From NCBI RefSeq assembly GCF_018499875.1, contig NZ_JAHBAY010000006.1:248001-312000 (forward strand): a stretch of DNA of 64,000 bases. Reading direction: 5' to 3'. This DNA comes from Kineosporia corallincola. Its GTDB lineage: Bacteria; Actinomycetota; Actinomycetes; Actinomycetales; Kineosporiaceae. Positions 1,938 to 61,549 of the stretch are shown here, in pieces. Both the position numbers and the translations under genes were made by a program. Under the pieces are notes generated by a model. The model did no database searches. It saw nothing but the letters and a program-made list of their open reading frames with translations, and was not told where the DNA came from. Each line of letters begins with the position of its first letter. The first letter of the stretch is position 1.

Positions 1938-2813
1938 ATGGGACATCTGGTGGATCGTCGCCGCGTCGTCCGGGTGCGCGCGGCGGGTAGCCCGCAGGTC
2001 GCGGTCTCGGCCCGCCCCGACCAGCTGGCGGTGGAGGCACCGCTCACCATCAAGCACGGCGAGCGCACCGTGGCCACCACCATGCGCACGCCCGGGCACG
2101 ACCTGGAGCTCGCGCTCGGCTGGCTGGTGGCCGAGGGAGTGGCCCGTTCACCGGCCGACGTCACCGAGCTGACCTCCTGCGACACCGACACCGTGCAGGT
2201 GCGGCTGGCTCCGGGGGTGCCCGAGCCGCAGTCCCGCCTGGGCGCCACCTCCAGCGCCTGCGGTGTCTGCGGCAGCGACTCGATCGCCGAAGTGCTGGCC
2301 CGCCGCCCGGTTCCGGGCCTGATCACGCTCCCGATGGTGGACGACGAGGAGCCCGCACGAAGCTCCTCGTCGTCCACCGTTGAGGCGCTGATCGACGCGG
2401 GCGTCCTGGTGGGACTGCCCGACCGGCTGCGGGAGGCGCAGCGCGCCTTCGACCGGACGGGCGGACTGCACGCGGCCGGGTTGTTCACCCCCGACGGCGA
2501 ACTGCTGTGCGTGCGCGAGGACGTGGGCCGGCACAACGCGGTGGACAAGGTGGTCGGCTGGGCCGCCACCCACGGGCTGCTGCCCGCCACGAACACCGTG
2601 CTCCAGGTCAGCGGGCGGGCCTCGTTCGAGCTCACGCAGAAGGCTACGATGGCCGGGATCCCGCTGCTGTCAGCGGTTTCCGCCCCCTCGACACTGGCCG
2701 TCGACCTGGCCGAGGAGGCGGGTGTGACGCTGGCCGGATTCGTGCGCGGCGACTCGATGAACCTCTACACGCACGCCTCGCGGGTTCGGGTGGAGGTTCC
2801 GGTGGGCGCCTGA
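1938..2813 (+). CDS. fdhD: FdhD sulfurtransferase for formate dehydrogenase
   Basis: FdhD passes sulfur from a cysteine desulfurase to the molybdenum cofactor of formate dehydrogenase and is needed for that enzyme's activity. The 291-residue product has the conserved CGVCGSDS cysteine motif near residue 110, the block REDVGRHNAVDKVVGW near 195, and VSGRASFELTQKA followed by GDSMNLYTHASR at the end. ATG 1938 is chosen because the reading frame upstream does not resemble the family. No formate dehydrogenase gene is in the window. The segment between the Cys motif and the GLPDRLREAQ block carries VDDEEPARSSSSST, which is encoded by a perfect 17-bp palindrome also found elsewhere in this window. 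It therefore looks like a palindromic element tolerated in a variable loop. Confidence 0.93.
   Translation: MGHLVDRRRVVRVRAAGSPQVAVSARPDQLAVEAPLTIKHGERTVATTMRTPGHDLELALGWLVAEGVARSPADVTELTSCDTDTVQVRLAPGVPEPQSRLGATSSACGVCGSDSIAEVLARRPVPGLITLPMVDDEEPARSSSSSTVEALIDAGVLVGLPDRLREAQRAFDRTGGLHAAGLFTPDGELLCVREDVGRHNAVDKVVGWAATHGLLPATNTVLQVSGRASFELTQKATMAGIPLLSAVSAPSTLAVDLAEEAGVTLAGFVRGDSMNLYTHASRVRVEVPVGA
2336..2378 (+). repeat. Palindromic element, copy 1, inside fdhD
   Basis: A perfect 17-bp inverted repeat (GGTGGACGACGAGGAGC and its complement) flanks a 9-nt loop. It is entirely inside the fdhD reading frame and encodes VDDEEPARSSSSST. The core GGACGACGAGGAGC recurs in intergenic hairpins at 16299-16349 and, with one change per arm, at 51333-51380. 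Confidence 0.85.
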
Positions 2814-4310: not shown

Positions 4311-6468
<2,158 letters not shown>

Positions 6469-6556: not shown

Positions 6557-8230
6557 TCACTCTAGTTCGAGCAGCGCCCGCAGATGACGGGGAGGGGGTG
6601 CCCCGTGCGAGAGCAGCTGGTCGTGCACCTGGAGCGGGGGCAGGTCCGGGTTCTGCGCGTGCAGCCGCCCGGCCAGGTCGCGGATCTCCCGGTGCCCGAC
6701 GTAGTAGGTGGACAGCTGGGTGGAGGTGAGCAGCGCCCGCCGCCACTTGCCGGCCGCCTCACCCTCCTCCTGGTGACCGCGGGCCGTCATCAGCCGGACC
6801 GCCTCGTCCTCGGTCATCCCGCGGGCATGCACCCGCACGTCGAGGATGGCGTTGATGGTGCTGCGCAGGCTCATCTTCAGCCGCATCAGCCGGAGCCGGT
6901 CGTCGTCGTCCGGCCGCAGGCCGAGGCCCGCCCCGGCCATCAGCTCCTCGGCGTACACCGCCCAGCCCTCGATGAAGGTGCCGCTGCGCACGGCGGTGCG
7001 CACCGGGGTGGCGCCGCGGTAGCGGGCGGCATGCGCCAGCTGCACCGCGTGGCCCGGAAAAGCCTCGTGCACGGCCAGGTTCCGCAACATGTGCCCGTTG
7101 TACTCGCGGTGGAACGAGGCGGTGCGCGGCTCGTCCCAGTCGGCCGGGGCGGGCGCCACGGCGAAGAACGTGGGGTGCTCGCCCGGCTCCAGCGGACCCG
7201 GGGCGTCGCAGTAGGCCACCGCGATGCCGGCCCGCGACGGCGGCATCTCGATCACCCGCACCGCCTGGTCCGGCACGGTGACCAGACCGAGCTCCCGCAC
7301 CCGGGCGGCGAGCAGCTCCAGGGCCTCCTCGCAGAGCGGTCGCACGGTGGTGGCCGTCACCGGGGCCGCGGCCGCGGTCTCGTCCAGCACCTCGCGCACC
7401 AGCGTCTCGGACATCGGCCGGCCGCTGATCCGGCAGGCCAGCTCGGCGATCTCCTCCTCGATCGCCTGGAGGTCGCTCTCCGCGCGGGTGAGCAGCGCGT
7501 CCGGGCCGGTCTCGGTGTCGAGCGTGTACCAGAGCCGGGCGGCGTAGTTCAGCTCGCCCAGGCGCGGGTCGCCGTCGCTGACCGGCAGCCGCGACTCCAG
7601 CCAGCGGGCGTGGTCCTCCAGCGCGGCCAGGGCGGCGTCGCGGGCCTCGCGCACCGGCCCGGCCAGCGACGCGTCCTGCGCCAGCAGCGGTTCCAGGTCG
7701 CCGGTCAGCAGCGGAACCGTGCCCCGGGCCTGGGTGATCGCGGTCTGCACCGCCAGTCGCGGCATGGTGTTCAGCACCGACCGGGCCTGCTCCAGCCGCT
7801 CCGGCACCTGCTCCAGCCGGCTGGTCAGGGCCCGCAGCCGCTCCGGCAGGTCCGGCGCGGTGCGGGTGATCAGCGGGTACAGCCCGTCAGCGGGCAGGTG
7901 CATCAGCGGGTCGACCTCGAAGCGCCGCAGCTCGGTCTGTTCCCACAGCGTGCCGCTCACCCGGGTGCGCAGGATCTCCAGGTCCACCCGGTCGTCCGGG
8001 GTGAGGGCCGTGTCGTCCACGTCGTCGAGCGCCGACAACGCGTCCACCAGCATGGACGCCCGGCCGATGGTGGCCTCGACGGTCAGCTCGGTGGTGCGGT
8101 CGTCGTACCGGTGCTCCCCCAGCCCGGTGGCCTCCTCCGGCGCCGCGGCCAGGAGTGCGTCCAGCACCTTCGTGGCCGCGTCGCGAAACCTCGCCGTGAC
8201 GATCGGATCCTCACCCTGCTGCTCGCGCAT
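6557..8230 (-). CDS. DUF885 family, predicted metal-dependent hydrolase/peptidase
   Basis: This 557-residue protein belongs to the DUF885 family, found in many actinobacteria and proteobacteria and related to M32-like metallopeptidases. The hallmark is NLAVHEAFPGHAVQLAHA near residue 390, an HE...GH metal-binding helix, followed by RSGTFIEGWAVYAEELM with the third likely ligand (E). The N-terminal half is helical and rich in Leu, Arg and Glu. There is no signal peptide, so a cytosolic protein is expected. ATG 8230 is chosen over the ATG nine bases upstream because GGGG precedes it at good spacing. Substrate is unknown. Confidence 0.85.
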   Translation of the reverse strand: MREQQGEDPIVTARFRDAATKVLDALLAAAPEEATGLGEHRYDDRTTELTVEATIGRASMLVDALSALDDVDDTALTPDDRVDLEILRTRVSGTLWEQTELRRFEVDPLMHLPADGLYPLITRTAPDLPERLRALTSRLEQVPERLEQARSVLNTMPRLAVQTAITQARGTVPLLTGDLEPLLAQDASLAGPVREARDAALAALEDHARWLESRLPVSDGDPRLGELNYAARLWYTLDTETGPDALLTRAESDLQAIEEEIAELACRISGRPMSETLVREVLDETAAAAPVTATTVRPLCEEALELLAARVRELGLVTVPDQAVRVIEMPPSRAGIAVAYCDAPGPLEPGEHPTFFAVAPAPADWDEPRTASFHREYNGHMLRNLAVHEAFPGHAVQLAHAARYRGATPVRTAVRSGTFIEGWAVYAEELMAGAGLGLRPDDDDRLRLMRLKMSLRSTINAILDVRVHARGMTEDEAVRLMTARGHQEEGEAAGKWRRALLTSTQLSTYYVGHREIRDLAGRLHAQNPDLPPLQVHDQLLSHGAPPPRHLRALLELE

Positions 8231-11012: not shown

Positions 11013-11079
11013 GAACGCGATGCTATCGCCCGCCTACCCGGTGTCGTGCGGCCAGGGTGACTTTTCACAGCAGACGACC

Positions 11080-11120
11080 GAGGACGACGACGAGCTCCGA
11101 CGGGGCTCATCGTCGTCCTC
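11080..11120 (-). terminator. mfd terminator hairpin, palindromic element copy 2
   Basis: An inverted repeat of 19 nt per arm (17 of 19 positions pair) begins six bases after the mfd stop codon. Its left arm, read on the minus strand, is GAGGACGACGATGAGCCCC, close to the GGACGACGAGGAGCCC core of the other copies. It probably stops transcription from mfd. Confidence 0.7.
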
Positions 11121-11125
11121 AATTT

Positions 11126-14100
11126 TCACCGGCGGGCCGAACCCACCGAGGCCGCCGCCCTGACCGAGGACAGCAACACCGACTCGATGAACTCCCGCGC
11201 CCAGGTCAGCACCGCGACGTCGCGCAGCGGACGGCCACCGATGCGCGCGGTGGTCGGGCCGGGCACCAGAACGGTCTTGGTGGCGGGCTTGTCCTGGGTG
11301 CCCGGGTAGAGACGGTGCAGCCGCATGCGGGCCGAGTCCGGCAGGTCGATCGGGCCGAACCGGATCGCCTTGCCCATCGTGCTGATCTCGGTGAGACCGG
11401 CCTGCCGGGCCAGGATCCGCAGCCGCGCCACCTCGAGCAGATGGTTGACGACGTCGGGCAGGGGGCCGTAACGGTCGACCAGCTCGGCCTTCACCGCGTC
11501 GAGCGCCTCGTCGGACGAGACCTCGGCCAGCTTGCGGTAGGCCTCCAGCCGCAGCCGCTCGTCGGGCAGGTAGTCGGTGGGCAGGTGCGCGTCCACCGGC
11601 AGGTCGATCTTGACCTCGTGGTTCTCCTGCTCGTTCTCGCCGCGGAACTCCGCGACCGCCTCGCCGACCAGCCGGATGTACAGGTCGAACCCGACGCCCG
11701 CGATGTGCCCGGACTGCTCGCCGCCGAGCAGGTTGCCGGCGCCGCGGATCTCCAGGTCTTTCATCGCCACGCGCATGCCGGCACCCAGGTCGGTGTTCGC
11801 CGCGATGGTCTGGAGCCGGTCGAGAGCCGTTTCGGTGAGCGGCTTCTCGCTCGGGTAGAGGAAGTAGGCGTAGGCCCGCTCGCGGCCCCGGCCGACCCGG
11901 CCGCGCAGCTGGTGCAGCTGCGAGAGGCCCATCATGTCGGCCCGTTCCAGGATCAGCGTGTTGGCGTTCGAGATGTCCAGGCCGGTTTCGATGATGGTGG
12001 TGCACACCAGCACGTCGAAACGCTTCTCCCAGAAGTCCACCATCACCTGCTCGAGCTGATGCTCGCCCATCTTGCCGTGGGCGGTGGCGATGCGGGCCTC
12101 GGGCACCAGCTCGTGCAGCCGGGCGGCGGTGCGGTCGATCGACTCCACCCGGTTGTGTATGAAGAACACCTGCCCCTCGCGCAGCAGCTCACGCCGGATC
12201 GCGGCGGAGATCTGCCGCTCGTCGTAGCCGCCGACGAAGGTCAGCACCGGGTGCCGCTCCTCGGGAGGCGTTGCCAGCGTGGACATCTCGCGGATGCCGG
12301 TGACCGCCAGCTCCAGGGTGCGCGGGATCGGGGTGGCGCTCATCGCCAGCACGTCGACGTTGGTGCGCAGCTGCTTCAGCCGCTCCTTGTGCTCGACACC
12401 GAAGCGCTGCTCCTCGTCGATCACCACCAGCCCCAGGTCTTTGAACTTGATCTCGCCGGTGAGCAGCCGGTGGGTACCGATGACCACGTCGACCGAGCCG
12501 TCGGTGATGCCCTCCTTGACCGCGCGGGCCTCGGCGTCGGTCGAGAACCGGGACAGGCCCCTGACATTCACCGGGAAGTTCACGTAGCGCTCGACGAAGG
12601 TGTCGAGGTGCTGCTGCACCAGCAGCGTGGTCGGCACCAGCACCGCCACCTGCTTGCCGTCCTGCACCGCCTTGAACGCCGCCCGCACCGCGATCTCGGT
12701 CTTGCCGTAGCCCACGTCGCCACAGATCAGCCGGTCCATCGGGACCGTCTTCTCCATGTCCTTCTTGACCTCTTCGATGGTCACCAGCTGGTCCGGCGTC
12801 TCCACGTAGGCGAACGCGTCTTCCAGCTCGCGCTGCCACGGCGTGTCCGGCCCGAAGGCGTGCCCGCTGGTGGCCATCCGCGCCGAGTACAGCTGGATCA
12901 GCTCACCGGCGATCTGCTTGACCGCCTTGCGGGCCCGGCCCTTGGTCTTGGCCCAGTCGGTGCCGCCGAGCTTGTTCAGCGTCGGCTGCTCGCCGCCCAC
13001 GTAGCGGGTGACCTGGTCGAGGGCGTCGGTCGGCACGAACAGCCGGTCGCCCGGCTGACCCCGCTTGCTGGCCGCGTACTCGATCACCAGGTACTCCCGG
13101 GTGGCCCCGCCGACGGTGCGCTGCACCAGCTCGACGAACCTGCCCACCCCGTGCTGCTCGTGCACCACGTTGTCGCCGGTGGTGAGCTGCATCGGGTCGA
13201 CCACGTTCTTGCGGCGCGCCGGCATCCGGCGCATGTCCTTCGTGGTCGAGCCGGGCGCCGTGCCGCCGGTCAGGTCGGCCTCGGTGAGCACGGCGAACTT
13301 CTGCCCCGGAGCGACGAATCCCTGCCCCAGTCGTCCCGTGCCGACCGCCGCGACCGACTCGGCCGGGGGCCGCGAGAGGTCGTCGACCAGGCTCGCGGCC
13401 AGGTCGGCCTCGGTCAGCATCTCGACCACACGCCGGGCCAGGCCGCTGCCCTCGGTGATCACCGCGACCCGCCAGCCCTCGCGCAGCCAGCCGCCGATGT
13501 CGGCGATGGCTCGCTCGCGGTCACCGCGGTAGGGCTCGGGGGCGCTGATCTCCGGCACCAGGACGACGGCTCCCTCGTCGCCCTCGTCGTGCGCCGCCTG
13601 CCCGGTCTCGTCCAGGCCGAACGGCGAGACGGTCCACCAGGGCAGGCCCTGCTTGAGGGCGTGCGCCCGCACGTCGGCCAGGGTCCAGAACGACCCGGTG
13701 CCGAGGACCGGCTCCAGGTCGACCGGCACAGCACTGCCCGCGGCCGCGCTGAGCCAGCTGGCCTGGAGGAACTCCTCGGAGGTGGCGACCAGGTCGTGGG
13801 CCCGGGCGCGGATCCGCTCCGGGTCGGCCAGCAGCACGTGGGTGTGCGGCGGCAAGACGTCCAGCACCGACTCCATGGCGTCGACCAGCACCGGCGTCAG
13901 GGACTCCATGCCCTCGACCGCGATCCCGGCGGCCACCTTGCCGAGCAGGTCGGCCACGCCCGGCAGCCGTTCGGCCAGCTCGGCCGCCCGCTCCCGGACC
14001 TCGTCGGTGAGCAGCAGCTCGCGGCACGGCGGGGCCCAGAGGCCGGTCTCGGCCACCTGGAGCGAGCGCTGGTCGGCGACCGCGAAGTAGCGGATCTCCT

Positions 14101-14722
14101 CCACCTCGTCGCCCCAGAACTCCACCCTCAGCGGGTGCTCCTCGGTGGGCGGGAACACGTCGAGGATGCCGCCGCGCACGGCGAACTCGCCCCGCCGCTC
14201 AACCAGGTCGGTGCGACTGTAGGCGGCCGCGGCCAGGCGCTCGACCACCTCGGTCAGCTCGGCCTCCTGCCCGGCGTGCAGGCTGACCGGCTCCAGGTCG
14301 CCCAGGCCGCGCACGACCGGCTGGAGCACGGCCCGCACCGGGGCCACGACCACCTGGACCGGCCCGTGCTCGGCGGTCTCCGGGTGAGCCAGGCGGCGCA
14401 GCACGGCGATGCGGCGGCCCACGGTGTCGCTACGCGGGCTGAGGCGCTCGTGCGGGAGTGTCTCCCAGGCGCCGAACTCGGCCACCGCGTGCTCGGGCAG
14501 GAAGCAGCGCAACGCCGCGGCCAGGTCTTCGGCCTCGCGGCCGGTGGCGGTGACGGCCAGCACGGTGCGGCCCTGGCCGGCCACGCCGGCCACGAGCGGG
14601 GCCCGCAGGCCGGGCGGTCCGGTGAGGTCGAGCAACGGCTCGCCGCCCTCTCGGGCGATCCGCAGCACGTCGCTCACGGCGCGATCGGCGCCGAGCAGGT
14701 CGAGGATTCCGGTGAGGCTCAT
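11126..14722 (-). CDS. mfd: Transcription-repair coupling factor Mfd
   Basis: Mfd is an ATP-driven translocase that removes RNA polymerase stalled at DNA lesions and recruits UvrA. The 1198-residue length is typical. The N-terminal UvrB-like region (1-370) is followed by the RNA-polymerase-interacting, CarD-like domain (GDNVVHEQHGVGRFVEL, then REYLVIEYA), the helicase motor with Walker A ICGDVGYGKTEIAVRAAF, the motif VVIDEEQRFGVEHKERLK, MSATPIPRTLELA and QLRGRVGRGRERAYAY, and a C-terminal TRCF domain (LPDERLRLEAYRKLAEV). ATG 14722 begins the homologous MSLTGILDLLG; an upstream in-frame ATG would add 13 unrelated residues. Confidence 0.97.
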   Translation of the reverse strand: MSLTGILDLLGADRAVSDVLRIAREGGEPLLDLTGPPGLRAPLVAGVAGQGRTVLAVTATGREAEDLAAALRCFLPEHAVAEFGAWETLPHERLSPRSDTVGRRIAVLRRLAHPETAEHGPVQVVVAPVRAVLQPVVRGLGDLEPVSLHAGQEAELTEVVERLAAAAYSRTDLVERRGEFAVRGGILDVFPPTEEHPLRVEFWGDEVEEIRYFAVADQRSLQVAETGLWAPPCRELLLTDEVRERAAELAERLPGVADLLGKVAAGIAVEGMESLTPVLVDAMESVLDVLPPHTHVLLADPERIRARAHDLVATSEEFLQASWLSAAAGSAVPVDLEPVLGTGSFWTLADVRAHALKQGLPWWTVSPFGLDETGQAAHDEGDEGAVVLVPEISAPEPYRGDRERAIADIGGWLREGWRVAVITEGSGLARRVVEMLTEADLAASLVDDLSRPPAESVAAVGTGRLGQGFVAPGQKFAVLTEADLTGGTAPGSTTKDMRRMPARRKNVVDPMQLTTGDNVVHEQHGVGRFVELVQRTVGGATREYLVIEYAASKRGQPGDRLFVPTDALDQVTRYVGGEQPTLNKLGGTDWAKTKGRARKAVKQIAGELIQLYSARMATSGHAFGPDTPWQRELEDAFAYVETPDQLVTIEEVKKDMEKTVPMDRLICGDVGYGKTEIAVRAAFKAVQDGKQVAVLVPTTLLVQQHLDTFVERYVNFPVNVRGLSRFSTDAEARAVKEGITDGSVDVVIGTHRLLTGEIKFKDLGLVVIDEEQRFGVEHKERLKQLRTNVDVLAMSATPIPRTLELAVTGIREMSTLATPPEERHPVLTFVGGYDERQISAAIRRELLREGQVFFIHNRVESIDRTAARLHELVPEARIATAHGKMGEHQLEQVMVDFWEKRFDVLVCTTIIETGLDISNANTLILERADMMGLSQLHQLRGRVGRGRERAYAYFLYPSEKPLTETALDRLQTIAANTDLGAGMRVAMKDLEIRGAGNLLGGEQSGHIAGVGFDLYIRLVGEAVAEFRGENEQENHEVKIDLPVDAHLPTDYLPDERLRLEAYRKLAEVSSDEALDAVKAELVDRYGPLPDVVNHLLEVARLRILARQAGLTEISTMGKAIRFGPIDLPDSARMRLHRLYPGTQDKPATKTVLVPGPTTARIGGRPLRDVAVLTWAREFIESVLLSSVRAAASVGSARR

Positions 14723-16298: not shown

Positions 16299-16349
16299 AA
16301 ATCATGGACGACGAGGAGCCCGTCACGGGCTCCTCGTCGTCCATGATTT
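16299..16349. terminator. Bidirectional terminator hairpin, palindromic element copy 3
   Basis: A perfect 25-bp inverted repeat (arm AAATCATGGACGACGAGGAGC extended by CCGT) with almost no loop. It lies between the transposase-like gene and the convergent reductase gene and can terminate both. It shares its arms with the elements at 51333 and inside fdhD. Confidence 0.88.
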
Positions 16350-17530: not shown

Positions 17531-18511
17531 ATGGACTTTGATCCGTGGATGGCCCTGGCGGCGTTCGGCATCGGCATCGTGGTGGGCCTGACCGGCATGG
17601 GCGGCGGCGCGCTGATGACGCCGGTGCTGGTGCTGTTCTTCGGGGTCGCGCCCACGGCCGCGGTGTCGAGCGACCTGGTCGCGGCCGCGGTGATGAAGCC
17701 GGTCGGCTCGTTCGTGCACCTGCGCCGCGGCACCGTGAACCTTTCGCTGGTGCGCTGGCTGTGCGTGGGGTCGGTGCCGGCGGCGTTCTGCGGGGTGCTG
17801 ATCACCCGGGCCCTGGGCAGCGACGAGTCCGTGCAGCACGGCATCAAGATCGCGCTGGGCGTAGCCCTGCTGATCGCGGCCGGCGGGCTCGGCGTGCGGG
17901 CCTACCAGCGGCTGGTGGAGCGCGCCGCCCGGCGCGACGGACGGGCCCCGGCCCTGCCCACCGAGCGGCCCGAGGTGGTCGCCCGGCCCCTGCCCACCAT
18001 CGCGATCGGCGCGCTCGGTGGGCTGATCGTGGGCATCACCTCGGTCGGCTCCGGGTCGCTGATCATCATCGCGCTGATGGCCCTCTACCCCACCCTCAAG
18101 GCCAACCAGCTGGTCGGCACCGACCTGTTCCAGGCCGTGCCGCTGGTGTTCTCCGCGGCGCTGGGCCACATCCTGTTCGGCGACTTCCAGCTCGACCTCA
18201 CGCTGGCCCTGATCGTCGGCAGCGTGCCCGGGGCCTGGCTGGGGGCGCAGCTGTCCACCCGGCTGCCCGGCGGCCTGGTGCGCCGTGCCCTGGCCTTCGT
18301 GCTGCTGGCCTCGGCCCTGAAGATGTTCGGTGTGGGCAACACCGGCACCGCCGCGCTGCTGGCCGCCTTCCTGGTGATCACCCCCGCGGTGTGGATGCTG
18401 CTACGCCGCCGGCACGGGTTCCCGGCTCTGGCCCGGCCCGGTGAGGACGACGAGGAGGCTGCTGCGGCCGACCCGGGATCAGGCCGGCCGCAGCAGGTCT
18501 CAGCGTCCTGA
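17531..18511 (+). CDS. TSUP (TauE/SafE) family permease
   Basis: This is a membrane permease of the TauE/SafE family, which includes sulfite, sulfoacetate and other organic-anion exporters. Its 326 residues contain about eight hydrophobic helices in two repeats, each opening with the family glycine-rich motif: GMGGGALMTPVLVLFFGVAP near 18 and ITSVGSGSLIIIALMALYP near 165. The tail EDDEEAAAADPGS is acidic. The start is ATG 17531; an ATG at 17520 is out of frame. The 3' end overlaps the last 12 bp of the convergent gene. Substrate unknown; the cys operon is 17 kb away and gives no real link. Confidence 0.88.
   Translation: MDFDPWMALAAFGIGIVVGLTGMGGGALMTPVLVLFFGVAPTAAVSSDLVAAAVMKPVGSFVHLRRGTVNLSLVRWLCVGSVPAAFCGVLITRALGSDESVQHGIKIALGVALLIAAGGLGVRAYQRLVERAARRDGRAPALPTERPEVVARPLPTIAIGALGGLIVGITSVGSGSLIIIALMALYPTLKANQLVGTDLFQAVPLVFSAALGHILFGDFQLDLTLALIVGSVPGAWLGAQLSTRLPGGLVRRALAFVLLASALKMFGVGNTGTAALLAAFLVITPAVWMLLRRRHGFPALARPGEDDEEAAAADPGSGRPQQVSAS
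18459..18496. terminator. Hairpin at the 3' end of the TSUP gene
   Basis: A perfect 12-bp inverted repeat (CTGCTGCGGCCG and complement, 14-nt loop) lies inside the last codons of the TSUP gene, just past the end of the convergent propeller gene. The position suggests a terminator for the minus-strand gene. It is unrelated in sequence to the GGACGACGAGGAGC hairpins. Confidence 0.5.
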
Positions 18512-20767
18512 CGCGGTGAAGTGCGCGGCGACCGCCGCCGCGGACAGGGCCGTGGGGTACACCGCCACCTCGTCGATGCGCCCGTTCAGGTAACGGCTGG
18601 TGGGCTGGTTCGGCCAGCCGCCCAGACTGTCGCCGCCGACCCGCCAGAACCCGTTGTACACCTGGTTGTTCGTGGTCGTGTTCTGGCCTTGCAGCTGCCC
18701 GTCGACATACAGACGCATGCCGCCCGGCCCCTGGGTGCCGACCACGTGGTGCCACTGGTCGTCGTTGTACGACGCGGTGCTGGTGAGGGTGTAGAAGGTG
18801 CCCCAGTAGACGCCGAACACCAGACGGCCGTTGTCGGTCATGTACAGGTGCTTGTCGAACTGGCCGCTGACCGTGGCGTTGCCGTTGAAGTCGATGCCGC
18901 CCCGGTTGTTGCCGAAACCGATGATGCGGCCACCGGATCCGGTGCTCGTGCGGACCCAGGCCTCCACGCTGAACGTGCTCGGCGAGGACCGCGGTTTCTC
19001 GCTGCTCAGGTATCCGGTGCTGCCGTTGAAGGTGACGGCGGTGTCACCACTCACCGCCCCGGACTGGCCGTGGGTGACGCCCCCGGCGAAGGTACCGCCG
19101 TCGAGCGAGGCCGAGGTGTCGGGGGCCACCGGACCGGCCGCCTGCCCGAGACGCCAGTAGAGCGAGGGCGAATCGGCCTCCACCGCGGCCTGGTAGGCCG
19201 GAGCCGAGGTGGTCACCGTGACCGCCGCCGAGGTGGCCCGGGCGCTGACCCCGGTGCCGTTGGCCTGAGCCACCTCCACCCCGTAGGTGTGGCTGCTGCC
19301 GTCGGCCAGTCCGGCGTCCTCGAAGGCGGCCACCGGCTGACGCCAGAACAGTGAGTGCACGGCCGCGGTCGCGATCGGCGTGCTGCCGCCGTCGCGGTAC
19401 AGCCGCACCACCAGGTCGGTGTCGTCCAGGTCGAGCGGCGACTGCACGAACACCGAGACCCGCCCGTCGCCCCGGGCCACGGCCACCGGCGTGGCCGGCC
19501 GGGCCGGCACCGCCACCGGGCTGGCGGACGGCGAGAAGCGGGTGAAACCCTGCTGGGCAACGCCGTTCACGGTGGTGAACTCGCCGCCGACGAAGATCTG
19601 CGCACCGTCGGTGGCGAGCACCCTCGGCCCCAGACCGGCGCCGGTGCCGCCGTTCGTGTTCGGGTACCAGCTGCCGAGCGCGCCGGTGTCGGCCGACCGG
19701 GAGAGCAGGTGCCGGGAGAGCCCGACCGACCAGCCGCTCTCGGCGAAGGCGTTCGGGTCGAACGACGTGTCACCGCTGCAATCGTGCGTGTGCGAGCCGG
19801 TGTACAACAGCCCGTTGAGCACCGCGATGCCCTGCGTGGCCCCCAGGCAACGGCTCACCCACTTCAGCGAGCCGTCCGACTGGTTCGCCGCGAAGGTCCC
19901 GTCGAAGCATCCGCTGCCCGTGCCCTCGGCCCCGAAGAAGGCCGAGTCGTCGTCCACCGTGACAGCTTTGATCTGCACCGAGCAGGCGCTGCTGGCCGCC
20001 GGAATCACCGATCCGGCCGCGAACGGCTCCAGCGTGCCGTCGGTCGCGTCGACGACCCCGGCCCGGTCGTACGAGGTGTCGCCGTCCACACTGTCGAAAG
20101 CGCCTGCGAGGTAGAGCTTGCTCTCGTCGGTGGAGAGGTCGAGCCCGTACACCACGTTGTCGGCCGAGGCGCTGAACGCGGTGACGGTGGCACCGGTGGT
20201 GGTGTTCACCTTGGCCACCCGCACCCGGGCGACGTTGTTGACCCGCCCGAACCCGCCGCCGAGGTAGACCGCGGACGTGCCCGCGCTGACCGCGTAGACC
20301 CGGTAGTCGGCCACCGGGGCCCAGCTGGTGAGAGCTCCGGTCGACGTGCTGAACGCTGCCACACGACTGCGCGAGACACCGGCGACGGTGGTGAAATCGC
20401 CTGCGACGTAGACGGTCGAGCCGTCCGGGCTGACATCGAGCGAACGCACCACGGCGTTCGGCGCCGGGTTGAACGAGGTGATCAGCGCACCGGTGGAGGC
20501 ATCGAACGCGGCCAGGTAGTTCCGCGTGGTCTCGTTCGTGCCGGAGGCCGCGCCGGGCGGTCTCACCCTGGTGAAATCTCCTGCCACGTAGACAATTCCG
20601 TTGCCGGCGGCGATGGCCCGGACCATTCCGTTGGTCTGCCAGGCCGGAGCGGTGGAACCGGGGACGGATCCCTGGACCGCACCCGCCGGACCGGCCGGGA
20701 CGAGTGCGACGGCAGCCATGGCCATGAGCCCGGCGGCGAGCAGTGAGAAGCGTCGGAAGCCGTTCAT
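18500..20767 (-). CDS. Secreted beta-propeller protein with C-terminal LamG lectin-like domain
   Basis: This is a predicted secreted protein of 755 residues. GGAGG precedes ATG 20767. The signal peptide (MNGFRRFSLLAAGLMAMAAV) probably ends at AGPAGA. Residues 40-400 carry repeated blades: GNGIVYVAGDFTRV, STVYVAGDFTTVAG, SAVYLGGGFGRVNN and KLYLAGAFDSVDGD. A Fn3-like segment follows (430-520), then a LamG/concanavalin-like domain (540-750) with FSVEAWVRTSTGSGGRIIGFG, QWHHVVGTQGPGGMRLYVDG and RIDEVAVYPTALS. It has no catalytic motif I recognise. It closes one end of the polysaccharide locus, and the protein at 32816-35758 has a similar plan. A matrix or cell-surface carbohydrate-binding role is inferred. 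Confidence 0.85.
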   Translation of the reverse strand: MNGFRRFSLLAAGLMAMAAVALVPAGPAGAVQGSVPGSTAPAWQTNGMVRAIAAGNGIVYVAGDFTRVRPPGAASGTNETTRNYLAAFDASTGALITSFNPAPNAVVRSLDVSPDGSTVYVAGDFTTVAGVSRSRVAAFSTSTGALTSWAPVADYRVYAVSAGTSAVYLGGGFGRVNNVARVRVAKVNTTTGATVTAFSASADNVVYGLDLSTDESKLYLAGAFDSVDGDTSYDRAGVVDATDGTLEPFAAGSVIPAASSACSVQIKAVTVDDDSAFFGAEGTGSGCFDGTFAANQSDGSLKWVSRCLGATQGIAVLNGLLYTGSHTHDCSGDTSFDPNAFAESGWSVGLSRHLLSRSADTGALGSWYPNTNGGTGAGLGPRVLATDGAQIFVGGEFTTVNGVAQQGFTRFSPSASPVAVPARPATPVAVARGDGRVSVFVQSPLDLDDTDLVVRLYRDGGSTPIATAAVHSLFWRQPVAAFEDAGLADGSSHTYGVEVAQANGTGVSARATSAAVTVTTSAPAYQAAVEADSPSLYWRLGQAAGPVAPDTSASLDGGTFAGGVTHGQSGAVSGDTAVTFNGSTGYLSSEKPRSSPSTFSVEAWVRTSTGSGGRIIGFGNNRGGIDFNGNATVSGQFDKHLYMTDNGRLVFGVYWGTFYTLTSTASYNDDQWHHVVGTQGPGGMRLYVDGQLQGQNTTTNNQVYNGFWRVGGDSLGGWPNQPTSRYLNGRIDEVAVYPTALSAAAVAAHFTASGR

Positions 20768-22372: not shown

Positions 22373-24139
22373 GTGAGCGACATCCACACGCCGTCGGGCG
22401 GTCCTGTGCCGATGACAGGCCACCATCTGGCGGCAGGGCAGAACGTGATGACGGAGCAGACCGTGACGGTGGGGCAGATCGTGCGCGCCTGGCGCCGGCG
22501 GTTCGTCATCGTGCTGCTCTGCGCGCTGGCGGGTGGGCTGCTGGCGGCCGGGTACGCCTCGCTCGGCAGCCCGTCGTACACCGCCACCGCGGTGGTGAAA
22601 CTCGCTTCCCTGCCCGACAATCCGCTGACCACCAGCACAGCCGCGGTCCGGGCGGTGAACCCGGCGACCGAGTCCCAGGTGGTCACCTCCAGTTCGGTGG
22701 CCGCCCGGGCCGCCGAACTGATGAAGAGCGACGACTCGCCGGCCGCGCTGAGCCGGCGGGTCACGGTGACCAACCCGCTCGACAGCCAGGTGCTGCGCAT
22801 CGACTACTCGGCCGCCTCGGCCCGGCGGGCCGCCGACGGCGCGAACGCCTTCGCCCAGGCATATCTCGACTTCCGGTCCGAGGCCGTGCAGGCCCAGATC
22901 GACTCGCTGGACAAGGAACTCGGTGACCAGGCCGCAGCTCTGGTGAAGCAGCAGGAGAAGGCGCAGAAGCTGGCGATCACCAGTTCCGACGAGGTGACCC
23001 GGGCGAACGCCGAGACCCAGGTGGCCTCGCTGACCGGCGTGCTGGAGCAGGTGCGGGGGCAACGCGCCCAGCTGGCCGCCGCCTCCCGGCAGGCGGGTGA
23101 GCAGGTGGGGTCGGCGCAGCCGCCGACCGGTGCCTCGGGCATCACCCCGCCGGTGATGGTGGCCGCCGGGCTGGCGGCGGGCCTGGTCGGTGGGCTGGTG
23201 CTGGCCCTCCTGCGCGACCGCACCGACCAGCGGGTGCGCAGCCGGGAGCAGATCGAGTCCGTCTTCGGGCTGGCCGTGATCGCCGACGTGCCGGTGCGCC
23301 GGGGCAGGTCCACCCCGGAGTCCGAAGACGCCGTGCTGCGCCGGCTGGGTGCCGTGATCGCCTCACCACCGAATGCCCCCCGGATCAGCCCGCTGCTGCT
23401 CATGCCCGCGTACCGCACCGGCTCGTCCGACCTCCCCGCCCGGCTCGCCGCCGCGGTCGGCGCCCACATCGGCACGGCCCTGCTCTGCTCGGCCGACGCG
23501 GCGGCGCTGAACCTGACCACGCTGGAGGTGTCGTCGCTGCGCCGGGGCACCGTGCCGGTGCGCTCGTTCGGCGAGGAGAGCACGGTGAAGGCGGGACCCG
23601 ACCTGACCGCCCTGGCCGATGCCGAGGTGCTGGTGGTGGACGGGCTCAACGTGTCCGACCCGAGCACGCCGCTCATGCTCGCGCCCTCCAGCGCCGCCGT
23701 GCTGCTCGTGGTGCGACGCCGGGCCACCCGGCTGCCGGAGATCGCCGACGCGCTGCGCGAGTTGCGCAACGTCGGCAGCGAGGTGCACGGCGTGGTGCTG
23801 ATCGGGCCGAAACCGGTTCGCCGGCAGCGCCATCCGGCCGGAGCACACGCCGGGCCGATGTCGCTCAGCGACATCCCGGTGCACGGCAGCGGCCCGGTGG
23901 ACGACGAGGAACCGGCTCGCGACGGGGTTCCGGTTCGCGACGGTGCATCCGGGCCAGGCGGGGCGATCGCGAGCGAGCGAGCGTCGTCCATCGGTAACAA
24001 CGGATGGCCGACCGGAACCGTGACCCCACCGCGGAGGCCGGGCAAGCGGGACGGCGCCTCGGAAGACACCAGACCCCAGCCGGTCGTCGGACGGGTGCCT
24101 GCTGTCAGCGAGAAGCGTTCCGTGGGAAGGGATTCGTGA
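22373..24139 (+). CDS. Wzz-like polysaccharide co-polymerase with degenerate kinase domain
   Basis: This inner-membrane protein of 588 residues probably controls chain length or export of the polymer. The Wzz layout is clear: helix 1 (FVIVLLCALAGGLLAAGYASL, about 44-64), an extracellular region with Ala/Gln-rich coiled coils (160-245), and helix 2 (VMVAAGLAAGLVGGLVLALL, 259-278). The cytosolic domain (300-480) resembles a BY-kinase or ParA fold in strand pattern, with DAEVLVVDGLNVSDPST like a Walker B. There is no Walker A (GxxxxGKT), so ATP-dependent kinase activity is unlikely. The tail is disordered and includes VDDEEPAR, encoded by a decayed copy of the palindromic element. The stop overlaps the next start (TGATG). 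Confidence 0.82.
   Translation: MSDIHTPSGGPVPMTGHHLAAGQNVMTEQTVTVGQIVRAWRRRFVIVLLCALAGGLLAAGYASLGSPSYTATAVVKLASLPDNPLTTSTAAVRAVNPATESQVVTSSSVAARAAELMKSDDSPAALSRRVTVTNPLDSQVLRIDYSAASARRAADGANAFAQAYLDFRSEAVQAQIDSLDKELGDQAAALVKQQEKAQKLAITSSDEVTRANAETQVASLTGVLEQVRGQRAQLAAASRQAGEQVGSAQPPTGASGITPPVMVAAGLAAGLVGGLVLALLRDRTDQRVRSREQIESVFGLAVIADVPVRRGRSTPESEDAVLRRLGAVIASPPNAPRISPLLLMPAYRTGSSDLPARLAAAVGAHIGTALLCSADAAALNLTTLEVSSLRRGTVPVRSFGEESTVKAGPDLTALADAEVLVVDGLNVSDPSTPLMLAPSSAAVLLVVRRRATRLPEIADALRELRNVGSEVHGVVLIGPKPVRRQRHPAGAHAGPMSLSDIPVHGSGPVDDEEPARDGVPVRDGASGPGGAIASERASSIGNNGWPTGTVTPPRRPGKRDGASEDTRPQPVVGRVPAVSEKRSVGRDS
23895..23994 (+). repeat. Palindromic element, copy 4 (decayed), inside the co-polymerase gene
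   Basis: The outer arms TGGACGACG (23898-23906) and CGTCGTCCA (23982-23990) match the ends of the palindromic family. The left arm reads in the same frame as in fdhD and gives the same octapeptide, VDDEEPAR. The centre is expanded, with an 18-bp direct duplication (CCGGCTCGCGACGGGGTT and its variant). Confidence 0.6.
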
Positions 24140-29993: not shown

Positions 29994-30878
29994 TCAGGAG
30001 CGCTGGTACACGCGCACGTAGTCGATGTCGTACGAGCTGGGGAACTCGGTGTCTGCGGTCGGGTCTCCCGGCCAGCTGCCCCCGACGGCCAGGTTCAGGC
30101 GCAGGTAGAACGGTTTGGAGAAGGCCGAGCCCAGCCAGCCGGTGGTCTCTCCGGTGCGCTCGTACACCTGCTGCCCGTCGATGGACCAGACGATCGACGT
30201 GGGCGACCAGTCGACGGCGTAGGTGTGCATGCCCTCGCCGGGCCCCTCCCCCGCCGGAAAGCTGTACGCGTTGGCCTGTTTCTCGTGCGTGCCCACGTAG
30301 TCGTACCAGATGGTCTGATAGGCCTTGTCGAACTCCTGGTCACCGGACCCGCTGCCGACGGCCTCCAGCACGTCGATCTCACCGGTGCCGCCCGCGGTCG
30401 GCCGGGCCCAGAACGCCGGCCACATGCCCTTCGAAATGCCTTTTCGCACCGGCAGTTCGGCCCGCATCTCGAACCGGGCGTAGGTCCACTCGTGCAGCCC
30501 CTTGGTGGAGAGGTGGGCCGAGCTGTAGGCACGCCCCTGCGGAAACCGGTCGTCGGTGCCGGAACCACAGGGCAGCGGATCGCCCTCCCGGCGGGCGGTG
30601 AGCCGTAGCACCCCGTCGGCCACGGTGACGTTCTCCGGCCGGTTCATCAGGCAGGCGATCTGCCCGCCGCCGTCGCCGTAGGTGGACTCGTGCTCGACCA
30701 CCCAGTTCGCCGGATCGACCGTGCTGCCCTGGAACTCGTCGGCCCACACCAGCTTCCACGCAGCGCGTTCCGGTGTGCCGTGGTGTTCGAGGACGACGAA
30801 AACCCCCGCCCCGACGGCGAAGAGCAGCACCACCAGCGCCGCCCCGGCCCGTCGCCACGTGCGTGCATCGCCGTTCAT
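29994..30878 (-). CDS. Membrane-anchored GH16 family glycoside hydrolase
   Basis: This is a GH16 enzyme (beta-glucanase/laminarinase fold) of 294 residues. An N-terminal helix (AALVVLLFAVGAGVFVVLEHH) without a clear cleavage site suggests a membrane anchor. The GH16 domain (40-292) has the catalytic motif GEIDVLEAVG with its two glutamates, SSAHLSTKGLHEWTYARFE, WPAFWARP and the ending YDIDYVRVYQRS. The next minus-strand gene upstream (30999) encodes a close paralogue with an added binding module. In polysaccharide loci such enzymes trim or release the polymer, so the polymer may contain beta-linked glucose or galactose; that is inference. Confidence 0.9.
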   Translation of the reverse strand: MNGDARTWRRAGAALVVLLFAVGAGVFVVLEHHGTPERAAWKLVWADEFQGSTVDPANWVVEHESTYGDGGGQIACLMNRPENVTVADGVLRLTARREGDPLPCGSGTDDRFPQGRAYSSAHLSTKGLHEWTYARFEMRAELPVRKGISKGMWPAFWARPTAGGTGEIDVLEAVGSGSGDQEFDKAYQTIWYDYVGTHEKQANAYSFPAGEGPGEGMHTYAVDWSPTSIVWSIDGQQVYERTGETTGWLGSAFSKPFYLRLNLAVGGSWPGDPTADTEFPSSYDIDYVRVYQRS

Positions 30879-41432: not shown

Positions 41433-41478
41433 GACCTCAGGGCCGGTCCCGCCTTGCGGTGGGACCGGCCCTGAGGTC
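41433..41478 (-). terminator. Terminator after rplY
   Basis: A perfect 18-bp inverted repeat (GACCTCAGGGCCGGTCCC, 10-nt loop) starts 28 bp past the rplY stop and before pth. It is the longest simple hairpin in this part of the window. Confidence 0.88.
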
Positions 41479-51332: not shown

Positions 51333-51380
51333 AATCATGGACGACGCGGAGCCCACGAAAGCTCCGCGTCGTCCATGATT
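51333..51380. terminator. Bidirectional terminator hairpin, palindromic element copy 5
   Basis: A perfect 20-bp inverted repeat (AATCATGGACGACGCGGAGC, 8-nt loop CCACGAAA) lies between the convergent importer and ABC-F genes. Compared with copy 3, one A-T pair of the stem is replaced by C-G on both arms, a compensatory change. The loop resembles that of the fdhD copy (CCGCACGAA). Confidence 0.9.
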
Positions 51381-59071: not shown

Positions 59072-60226
59072 CTAGAGCTTGGCCCCGCAGACCGGCCAGC
59101 TGCCGGCCCCGGTCTTCTTGTAGAGCAGCTTGGCCCGGTAGGTCTGCTCCGAGGAGGAGGCGTTGATCGGGTTGCCCGACCCGCCCACCGAGGCCCAGGT
59201 GCTCACGCTGAACTGGTACAGCCCGTAGTACCCGGCCGAGTTCACGGCCTTGGGGTTCCCCCCGGACTCGCACTCGGCCAGCGCGGACCAGTTCAGCGAG
59301 TCCACGCCACCGCCCACGCTGCCGCCGGACGAGCCCGAACCGGAGTCCGAGCCGCCGCCGGAGGAGGAGGACGGCCTGGCCTTGGTGCCGACCTGGACCA
59401 CCTCGGTCACCGGCTTGCGGGTGACCTCGCTGTCGATCTGCTTGCGCTTGGTGATCTTCCCGTCGGTGCGGGTGATCTGCCAGGTGGTCTTCTCGACCCC
59501 GTCCCTGCCCTCGGTGACGACCTTGGTCTCGCCCTTGTAGAGCTTGCCGGTCTCGGTGCGGGTGGTCTTGTGGTCGACCGCCTGCGTCTTGGTCACCTGT
59601 TTCTGGGTGACCCGGGCCAGCTTGACGGTGAGGCCGTCGCGCAGCGGGGTGCTCGGCACCTGGGAGAGCTTGTCCAGCTCGCCGACCTTGACCTTCTCGT
59701 CGGTCAGCAGCTCGGACACGGTGGCGGCGGTGGACGTGATCTTGTCCTTGTCGCCGTCCGCGATCAGGGTGACCGTCTTCGGTGTGGTCAGCGACATGGT
59801 CATGCCGGCCCGGTCGATGCGGGCGGAGCGGGACGCGGACAGCTCCGCGCCCTCGGACCGCACACCCAGCGCGAGCAGGGCCTTGTCGACCGAGAGCTCG
59901 GTGGTCCAGTAGGTGCGCTCGGTGCCGTCCACCGTGAGGTTCAGGGGCCGGGCATAGCGGACGACCACGGTGTCTCCCTCACCGAGCTTGCTGCCGGTGG
60001 CGGGGGCGACCAGGTCGCGATCCTTGACGGAGATGTTCTCGTCGTCCAGGAAGTCCGCGACGTCGGAGGCGAAGGAGTGGACCTCGGTCGTACGACCGTC
60101 CACGGAGAGGGTGATGGTCTTGTTCGCCTGGGAGTACCAGACGCTGCCACCGACGGCGGCGGCGAGTACGGCGGCCTGTGCGATGTAACGCACGGGTCTG
60201 CTGTGGAGACGGACGAGCGGGCGCAT
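59072..60226 (-). CDS. rpfB: Resuscitation-promoting factor RpfB
   Basis: RpfB is a secreted or anchored muralytic enzyme that promotes growth resumption. The 384-residue protein has an N-terminal helix (YIAQAAVLAAAVGGSVWY), three DUF348 repeats (such as ITLSVDGRTTEVHSFASDV), a G5 domain with KTTRTETGKLYKGETKVV, a Ser/Gly-rich linker, and the C-terminal Rpf lysozyme-like domain: LNWSALAECESGGNPKA with the catalytic glutamate, YYGLYQFSVSTWASVGG. AGGAG precedes ATG 60226. The tatD-rpfB-ksgA order is conserved in actinobacteria. The 387-bp leader may carry regulation (see separate entry). Confidence 0.95.
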   Translation of the reverse strand: MRPLVRLHSRPVRYIAQAAVLAAAVGGSVWYSQANKTITLSVDGRTTEVHSFASDVADFLDDENISVKDRDLVAPATGSKLGEGDTVVVRYARPLNLTVDGTERTYWTTELSVDKALLALGVRSEGAELSASRSARIDRAGMTMSLTTPKTVTLIADGDKDKITSTAATVSELLTDEKVKVGELDKLSQVPSTPLRDGLTVKLARVTQKQVTKTQAVDHKTTRTETGKLYKGETKVVTEGRDGVEKTTWQITRTDGKITKRKQIDSEVTRKPVTEVVQVGTKARPSSSSGGGSDSGSGSSGGSVGGGVDSLNWSALAECESGGNPKAVNSAGYYGLYQFSVSTWASVGGSGNPINASSSEQTYRAKLLYKKTGAGSWPVCGAKL

Positions 60227-61514: not shown

Positions 61515-61549
61515 GGGACGCCCGTGGTCGTGGTGACCACGGGCGTCCC
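61515..61549 (-). terminator. Terminator after metG
   Basis: A perfect 15-bp inverted repeat (GGGACGCCCGTGGTC, 5-nt loop) lies 15 bp past the metG stop and is followed on the minus strand by TCTGTTCTGTTCG. It would separate metG from tatD transcription. Confidence 0.85.

Follow-up and report, generated by a model that had tools for sequence, protein, structure and literature searches.

The fdhD locus and its palindrome

We analysed a window of 64 kb (G000:C6:248001-312000) from the 8.2-Mb genome, in 53 contigs, of a soil bacterium, here called G000. The nearest named relatives of its fdhD gene are those of Kineosporia babensis, K. mesophila and K. rhizophila, which places the genome in Kineosporia. 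The fdhD product belongs to the FdhD/NarQ family (Table 1) and also matches E. coli FdhD (4pde, E 3.9e-30), with some of the palindrome-encoded residues lying opposite a gap. A perfect inverted repeat had been described in the initial annotation as lying wholly within this ORF, and its position proved exact to the nucleotide. It reads GGTGGACGACGAGGAGC-ccgcacgaa-GCTCCTCGTCGTCCACC and is translated as ...LPM-VDDEEPARSSSSST-VEAL....

This palindrome is far from chance. Folded as RNA, positions 2329-2385 reach -43.6 kcal/mol, where 200 shuffles average -18.0 (z -9.35, 0 shuffles as good). The pairing reaches a few bp outside the palindrome itself. The segment scores 65.5 bits (E 2.3e-17) in a whole-genome search with a covariance model built without it. 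Each arm holds one copy of the word GGACGACGA, the left one in the extended form GGACGACGAGGAGC (2339-2352) and the right one on the opposite strand. The fdhD copy has no U-rich tail and is probably a poor terminator.

Table 1. Features of the window discussed in the text.
Feature	Position	Strand	Remark
fdhD (FdhD/NarQ family), host of the palindrome	1938..2813	+	ORF and translation; Pfam PF02634 FdhD-NarQ, E 9.3e-65
Perfect inverted repeat in frame in fdhD	2336..2378	none	17-bp arms, 9-nt loop
Left copy of GGACGACGA in fdhD	2339..2347	+	
Right copy of GGACGACGA in fdhD	2367..2375	-	
Lone GGACGACGA	4548..4556	-	conserved in 5/5 congeners
Lone GGACGACGA	6903..6911	-	variable coding stretch
Intergenic family hairpin, imperfect arms	11072..11128	none	by 3' end of minus-strand gene 11126-14721
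Intergenic family hairpin between convergent genes	16299..16349	none	24-bp arms
Lone GGACGACGA	18445..18453	+	shared with G005, sole congener aligned there
Lone GGACGACGA	19947..19955	-	substitutions only vs G005 and G002 (two aligned there)
Lone GGACGACGA	23899..23907	+	no congener aligned
Lone GGACGACGA, antisense to predicted gene (TTCGAGGACGACGAAAACCCCC)	30791..30799	+	
Intergenic family hairpin between convergent genes	51333..51380	none	20-bp arms
Lone GGACGACGA	60039..60047	-	substitutions only vs all 5 congeners

fdhD was compared in five congeners (G001-G005) and in other actinobacteria; the protein alignment omits ten minus-strand rows, and L030 was included in a later comparison. The segment from the CxxC motif to GLPDRLREAQ is variable, as had been suggested, its length differing among relatives: from CxxC to REAQRAFD it measures 195 nt here and 183, 216, 141, 147 and 147 nt in the five congeners. 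No comparable palindrome occurs in fdhD of these five, the longest perfect arms in their stretch being only 7 bp. The palindrome had been likened to the Rickettsia palindromic elements, and an alignment of relatives was expected to show a precise gap at an inserted segment. There is none; linker length varies without a clean gap. Because the linker is hypervariable, an in-frame insertion of the Rickettsia type is unsupported, and we rejected it. G000 is roughly equidistant from all five congeners (87.6-88.5% identity), so the event that gave rise to the fdhD palindrome cannot be dated from them.

A hairpin family behind genes

The initial annotation named two findings that would speak against its reading, FdhD orthologues with the same segment and a core absent from the rest of the genome. 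Neither was seen, and the palindrome is a member of a dispersed family whose core recurs across the genome. The pattern GACGACGNNGAGC-N3..15-GCTCNNCGTCGTC has 65 matches in G000 and none in any of the five congeners, and its reversed control gives 0. A covariance model from 23 copies (fdhD copy left out; its E-values are rough) recovers at least 79 distinct places in the 8.2-Mb genome, with 150 candidates scored. Conservation of the core in this set is by construction, the model copies having been picked by pattern; pairs outside the core and at its variable positions covary, with a score of 0.219 vs 0.087 for shuffles and at most 0.047 for a slid alignment (per-position pairing was counted on 58 equally long rows among the 79). 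The stems are about 20-24 bp with compensatory changes, and A/T tracts flank many of them on the outside. Loops resemble one another more than shuffles do (36 pairs vs 10), and variants of the outer and inner arm show no linked inheritance (p 0.94).

In the congeners the best match to the model has E 3.4e-13, the hairpins there mostly having a different core; single ones with a nearly identical stem start occur in G002 (L085) and G005 (L086). The best match among 12 non-Kineosporia genomes has E 2.6e-4. Rfam at the gathering threshold returned nothing but two tRNAs from the 64-kb window.

Genes were predicted with a simple gene finder. Reading 94 of the 97 candidate places gave 63 flanked by convergent genes, 16 by minus-minus and 8 by plus-plus genes, 1 at an edge, 0 flanked by divergent genes and 6 inside gene predictions. 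In 85 of the 88 intergenic places no more than 50 nt separate the hairpin centre from a predicted stop codon, so that a GC-rich stem stands right after the gene end, as in intrinsic terminators. The same bias appears in a 704-kb sample chosen blind to the family (G000 stretches L229-L248 and L269-L280 plus the window), where, among gaps of 30 nt or more, paired words occupy 12/72 convergent, 7/182 minus-minus, 0/89 plus-plus and 0/104 divergent ones. From their convergent placement and closeness to stop codons the hairpins look like bidirectional terminators, and we infer that the intergenic pairs would act as bidirectional intrinsic terminators.

Three such hairpins stand in the window. The initial annotation had matched the fdhD arms to stand-alone intergenic hairpins there; the two with long arms do belong to the same family, as does the imperfect one. 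The orthologous site of the imperfect hairpin has different sequences in congeners. At 16299-16349, G001, G003 and G002 have hairpins of different sequence; at 51333-51380 this holds for G003, and the alignment places another palindrome in G002 and G005 and none in G001 and G004. Such turnover is what fast-changing terminators should look like. Other palindromes were noted along the way. A second long family, CGTGATCATGCAAAA...TTTTGCATGATCACG, with arms of up to 36 bp with mismatches, occurs in G005 and G002 (L115:5480-5562, L117:5987-6069, L119:3835-3917), and a palindrome with similar ends sits at the convergent site of the 51333 hairpin. The window also holds intergenic hairpins outside the family at 41433-41478 and 61515-61549, whose stems resemble congener ones (CAGGGCCGG..., GGGACGCCCGTGG...).

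A genome-wide count of palindromes inside genes, recommended with the Rickettsia comparison, gave the 6 in-gene places among the 94, of which 2 to 4 are credible. They are fdhD, a gene that we take to be TetR-like (L177), two gene ends (L014, presumably GNAT-like, and L156) and two others (L062, L195) whose matches are probably chance. In L177 the copy is imperfect and sits in a linker that varies; over the stretch compared, G000 has 77 residues and the five congeners 77, 77, 74, 72 and 72, and no element-sized precise gap was seen against them. L014 and L156 terminate within a copy or just past one. In fdhD, L177, L014 and L156 alike the left arm reads Asp-Asp-(Glu/Asp)-Glu (Asp-Asp-Asp-Glu in L156).

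A word in excess

The repeated unit is the single arm. GGACGACGA occurs 1,789 times in the genome (901+888 on the two strands) vs 609, 683, 525, 670 and 586 times in the five congeners, and the reversed pattern 894 times vs 683-859. This is 218 vs 63-88 per Mb, a 2.5- to 3.5-fold excess, or about 1,070-1,270 extra copies after genome-size scaling. In a 464-kb sample GGACGACGA outranks every other 9-mer in the comparison with congeners (z 25), at 269 vs 38 per Mb, a figure that overstates the genome-wide fold excess. The word GGACGACGANGAGC is found 264 times vs 8-13 in congeners (reversed control 36 vs 21-25), and about 90-100 of these copies fall within listed palindromes. One-mismatch variants of GGACGACGA are mostly at congener level, with milder rises where position 1, 6 or 9 is changed.

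Many copies stand alone. In the 464-kb sample 19 lone copies (41 per Mb) are antisense, vs 1 in G001 and 2 in the other congeners, and another 19 (41 per Mb) are intergenic, vs 3 and 2. The largest share of lone words is in the main sense frame, where they encode Asp-Asp-Glu/Asp (123 per Mb vs 23 in G001 and 26 in the other congeners); protein-level causes may contribute to this part of the excess. Across 704 kb, the 64 lone copies in antisense or intergenic position are preceded by A/T and followed by C, giving a consensus of about AATNGWGGACGACGARRNSCC, by which the core GGACGACGA is weakly extended. When a partner was sought on the downstream side, 22 of 59 intergenic copies had an exact one and the other 37 were near random; a near-partner (8-9 of 9 matching) was seen for 8 of 35 antisense copies vs about 4% at random. 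The word has no strand polarity on two contiguous stretches (58/54 and 24/28). Its spacing is even at 20- and 40-kb bins only (p 0.04 and 0.02), not at 5- and 10-kb bins. The fdhD segment is an inverted pair of a species-specific word that is over-represented genome-wide.

The word in G000 and in G001

The lone copies in the window have various histories (Table 1). That at 4548..4556, being conserved in all five congeners, is ancestral coding sequence and no recent gain. Over 232 kb of DNA aligned with G001 the word occurs 38 times in G000 and 10 times in G001, with 5 copies in common, hence 33 G000-only vs 5 G001-only copies; these figures, from two genomes, count gain in one and loss in the other alike. 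Part of the asymmetry is general, since the control word AGCAGCAGG gives 24 G000-only copies vs 9 in the same alignment.

Of 24 lone G000-only copies, 12 differ from G001 by 1-2 substitutions, 9 by at least 3 without a gap and 3 with a gap, so that 21 align gap-free. Paired copies behave differently: 5 of 9 G000-only ones coincide with a gap. Judged from this alignment, lone words look substituted and some whole pairs look inserted. Among all gap-free G000-only copies, the left fdhD arm included, 11 of 25 differ at three or more of the nine positions, and those may not be simple substitutions. One orthologous lone site has a different version in each genome (AATTGTGGACGACGAGAAGCACCGGC in G000, AATTGCGGACGTCGGTGGGCACCGGC in G001). 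Between convergent gene ends at L274:12405 a palindrome has been cleanly gained relative to G001, about 40 nt in all. This gain and the similarity of the loops hint at copying of whole elements; together with the gaps at paired copies they speak against a picture of pure substitution.

A possible uptake signal and other explanations

Over-representation, occurrence in and between genes and inverted pairing at gene ends recall the uptake signals for which Neisseria and Haemophilus are best known. The DUS and USS words, in the sections cited of PMC3630211 and PMC1852404, are short and over-represented, both intra- and intergenic, frequently form inverted-pair terminator stem-loops, and have versions that differ between related species. 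GGACGACGA likewise has about a thousand copies beyond expectation, lies in genes as well as between them on either strand, and forms terminator-like hairpins as inverted pairs. We lean, at a little short of even confidence and by analogy with DUS and USS, toward the reading that a bias for word-carrying DNA, likeliest the preferential uptake of own-species DNA during natural transformation, maintains and spreads the word. Point mutations creating the word would then be fixed through recombination of incoming DNA, inverted pairs would come to serve as terminators, and a permissive site, like the linker in fdhD, would tolerate a pair in a stop-free DDEE...SSSS frame. Mutation and uptake bias are argued to be sufficient for uptake-sequence accumulation in the part cited of PMC1939737. 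The fuller proposal, that this Kineosporia species marks its own DNA with GGACGACGA in natural transformation, that many of its terminators and one stretch of FdhD are built from pairs of it, and that relatives use other versions, is a possibility that we think less likely than not. All five congeners carry hairpins of different sequence, but the k-mer lists of G001, the one genome in which another version was sought, gave no lone word of comparable strength; they are dominated by CTGCAG, with AGGACGTCGG mildly raised.

An observation on CTGCAG, the PstI site, is added here for its own sake. It occurs 0 times in the G000 DNA counted (704 kb and further loci), where 195 are expected from shorter words, and is the sole absent palindromic hexamer among those with an expected count above 1; G001 has 416 in 640 kb, one strand, and the other congeners 145 in 311 kb. 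Its absence suggests very strong restriction avoidance in G000.

Of competence genes, comEA (SLBB and HHH) adjoins comEC (Competence and lactamase B) at locus L291. A comEA-comEC pair is also described, in the portion cited of PMC6370729, for the naturally transformable actinobacterium Micrococcus luteus. comEC is found in all five congeners too, which lack the word excess, and it is therefore non-discriminating. Among the matches listed from the open-access literature there was no uptake sequence in an actinobacterium, and Kineosporia was not named for natural transformation.

The hairpins may instead be a terminator family and nothing else: strong bidirectional terminators would be selected, gene conversion or copying over short distances would spread a preferred stem, and the palindrome in fdhD would be a by-product, as would the lone arms. 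Their position at 3' ends and between convergent genes agrees with this, as do the outer A/T tracts, the length and compensatory changes of the stems, and the different sequences of congener hairpins at the window's three intergenic sites. The excess of partnerless antisense and intergenic copies is left unexplained, however, as are the sense copies 1-2 substitutions away from G001 and the pairs in the middle of fdhD and of the TetR-like gene, and we judge this account rather unlikely. A mobile palindrome resembling an RPE, REP or MITE, which transposes beside stop codons and rarely into genes and leaves lone arms as its remains, would account for a dispersed family with a strict core in one of six genomes of the genus, for the alike loops, for the clean gain at L274:12405 and for the gaps at paired copies. 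We consider it unlikely: most lone G000-only copies are gap-free, the fdhD and TetR linkers have no element-sized precise gap, outer and inner arm variants are unlinked, and no Y1-type REP transposase was found in G000 (PF01797 search). The arm is moreover over-represented alone, which counts against a palindromic insertion element, since such an element predicts no such excess. Each of these two accounts leaves the lone copies unexplained.

The word could also be the binding site of a chromosome-processing protein, such as a Chi-like recombination site or the site of a nucleoid or segregation protein, for it is over-represented, species-specific and spread over genes and intergenic DNA. Chi and KOPS show strand polarity. 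This was looked for on the two contiguous stretches and not seen, and we know of no chromosome-processing protein whose sites are concentrated as inverted pairs at gene ends; such a role seems very improbable.

Relation to known systems

DUS of Neisseriaceae and USS of Pasteurellaceae are the closest parallel: a word of about 9-12 nt in large excess, in genes and intergenic, with paired hairpins. The receptor of the Neisseria DUS is the pilin-type ComP. Here the host is a high-GC actinobacterium, the uptake role is a proposal, and the strong excess is confined to one of the six genomes compared. Several DUS dialects have 2,245-3,603 copies per genome (from the part cited of PMC3630211), and the word here, with its smaller excess spread over 8.2 Mb, is sparser.

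Several hairpin systems are also comparable in part. Gardner et al. 2011 (RNIE), cited in PMC3526491, reportedly described TRIT and other sequence-similar terminator families of actinobacteria, hairpins behind genes whose sequence is common within a lineage. The Kineosporia hairpins share this lineage-specific sequence and placement, but their stem word is also abundant alone, within genes and antisense. The Rickettsia palindromic elements lie in frame in protein genes, where they add a hydrophilic stretch at a permissive place, and a large share of them is in genes. The fdhD palindrome resembles them in being in frame and in encoding such a stretch at such a place; copies in genes are exceptional here, however, no clean insertion is seen, and the unit is half a palindrome. 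REP and BIME are dispersed extragenic palindromes near gene ends, as are those of Kineosporia, but the REP/RAYT system was rejected for G000 on the PF01797 result and the mostly gap-free lone arms. A Y1-type transposase match was seen in one of the six genomes, G004 (L197, G004:C23:303160-303417).

Significance

Uptake sequences are treated as special to Neisseriaceae and Pasteurellaceae in the parts cited of PMC3630211, PMC1939737 and PMC7811141. If the uptake reading is true, the word would be a third origin of uptake signals, in a distant phylum, and self-marking of DNA would be something that evolves repeatedly; Kineosporia would be suggested to be naturally transformable, and its species would offer a simple test of how uptake words shift between sister species. 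Even without uptake, the genome shows one species-specific word recurring in many terminator-like hairpins and at about a thousand extra sites, and FdhD is an example of how an over-represented word can end as a palindrome encoding part of a protein.
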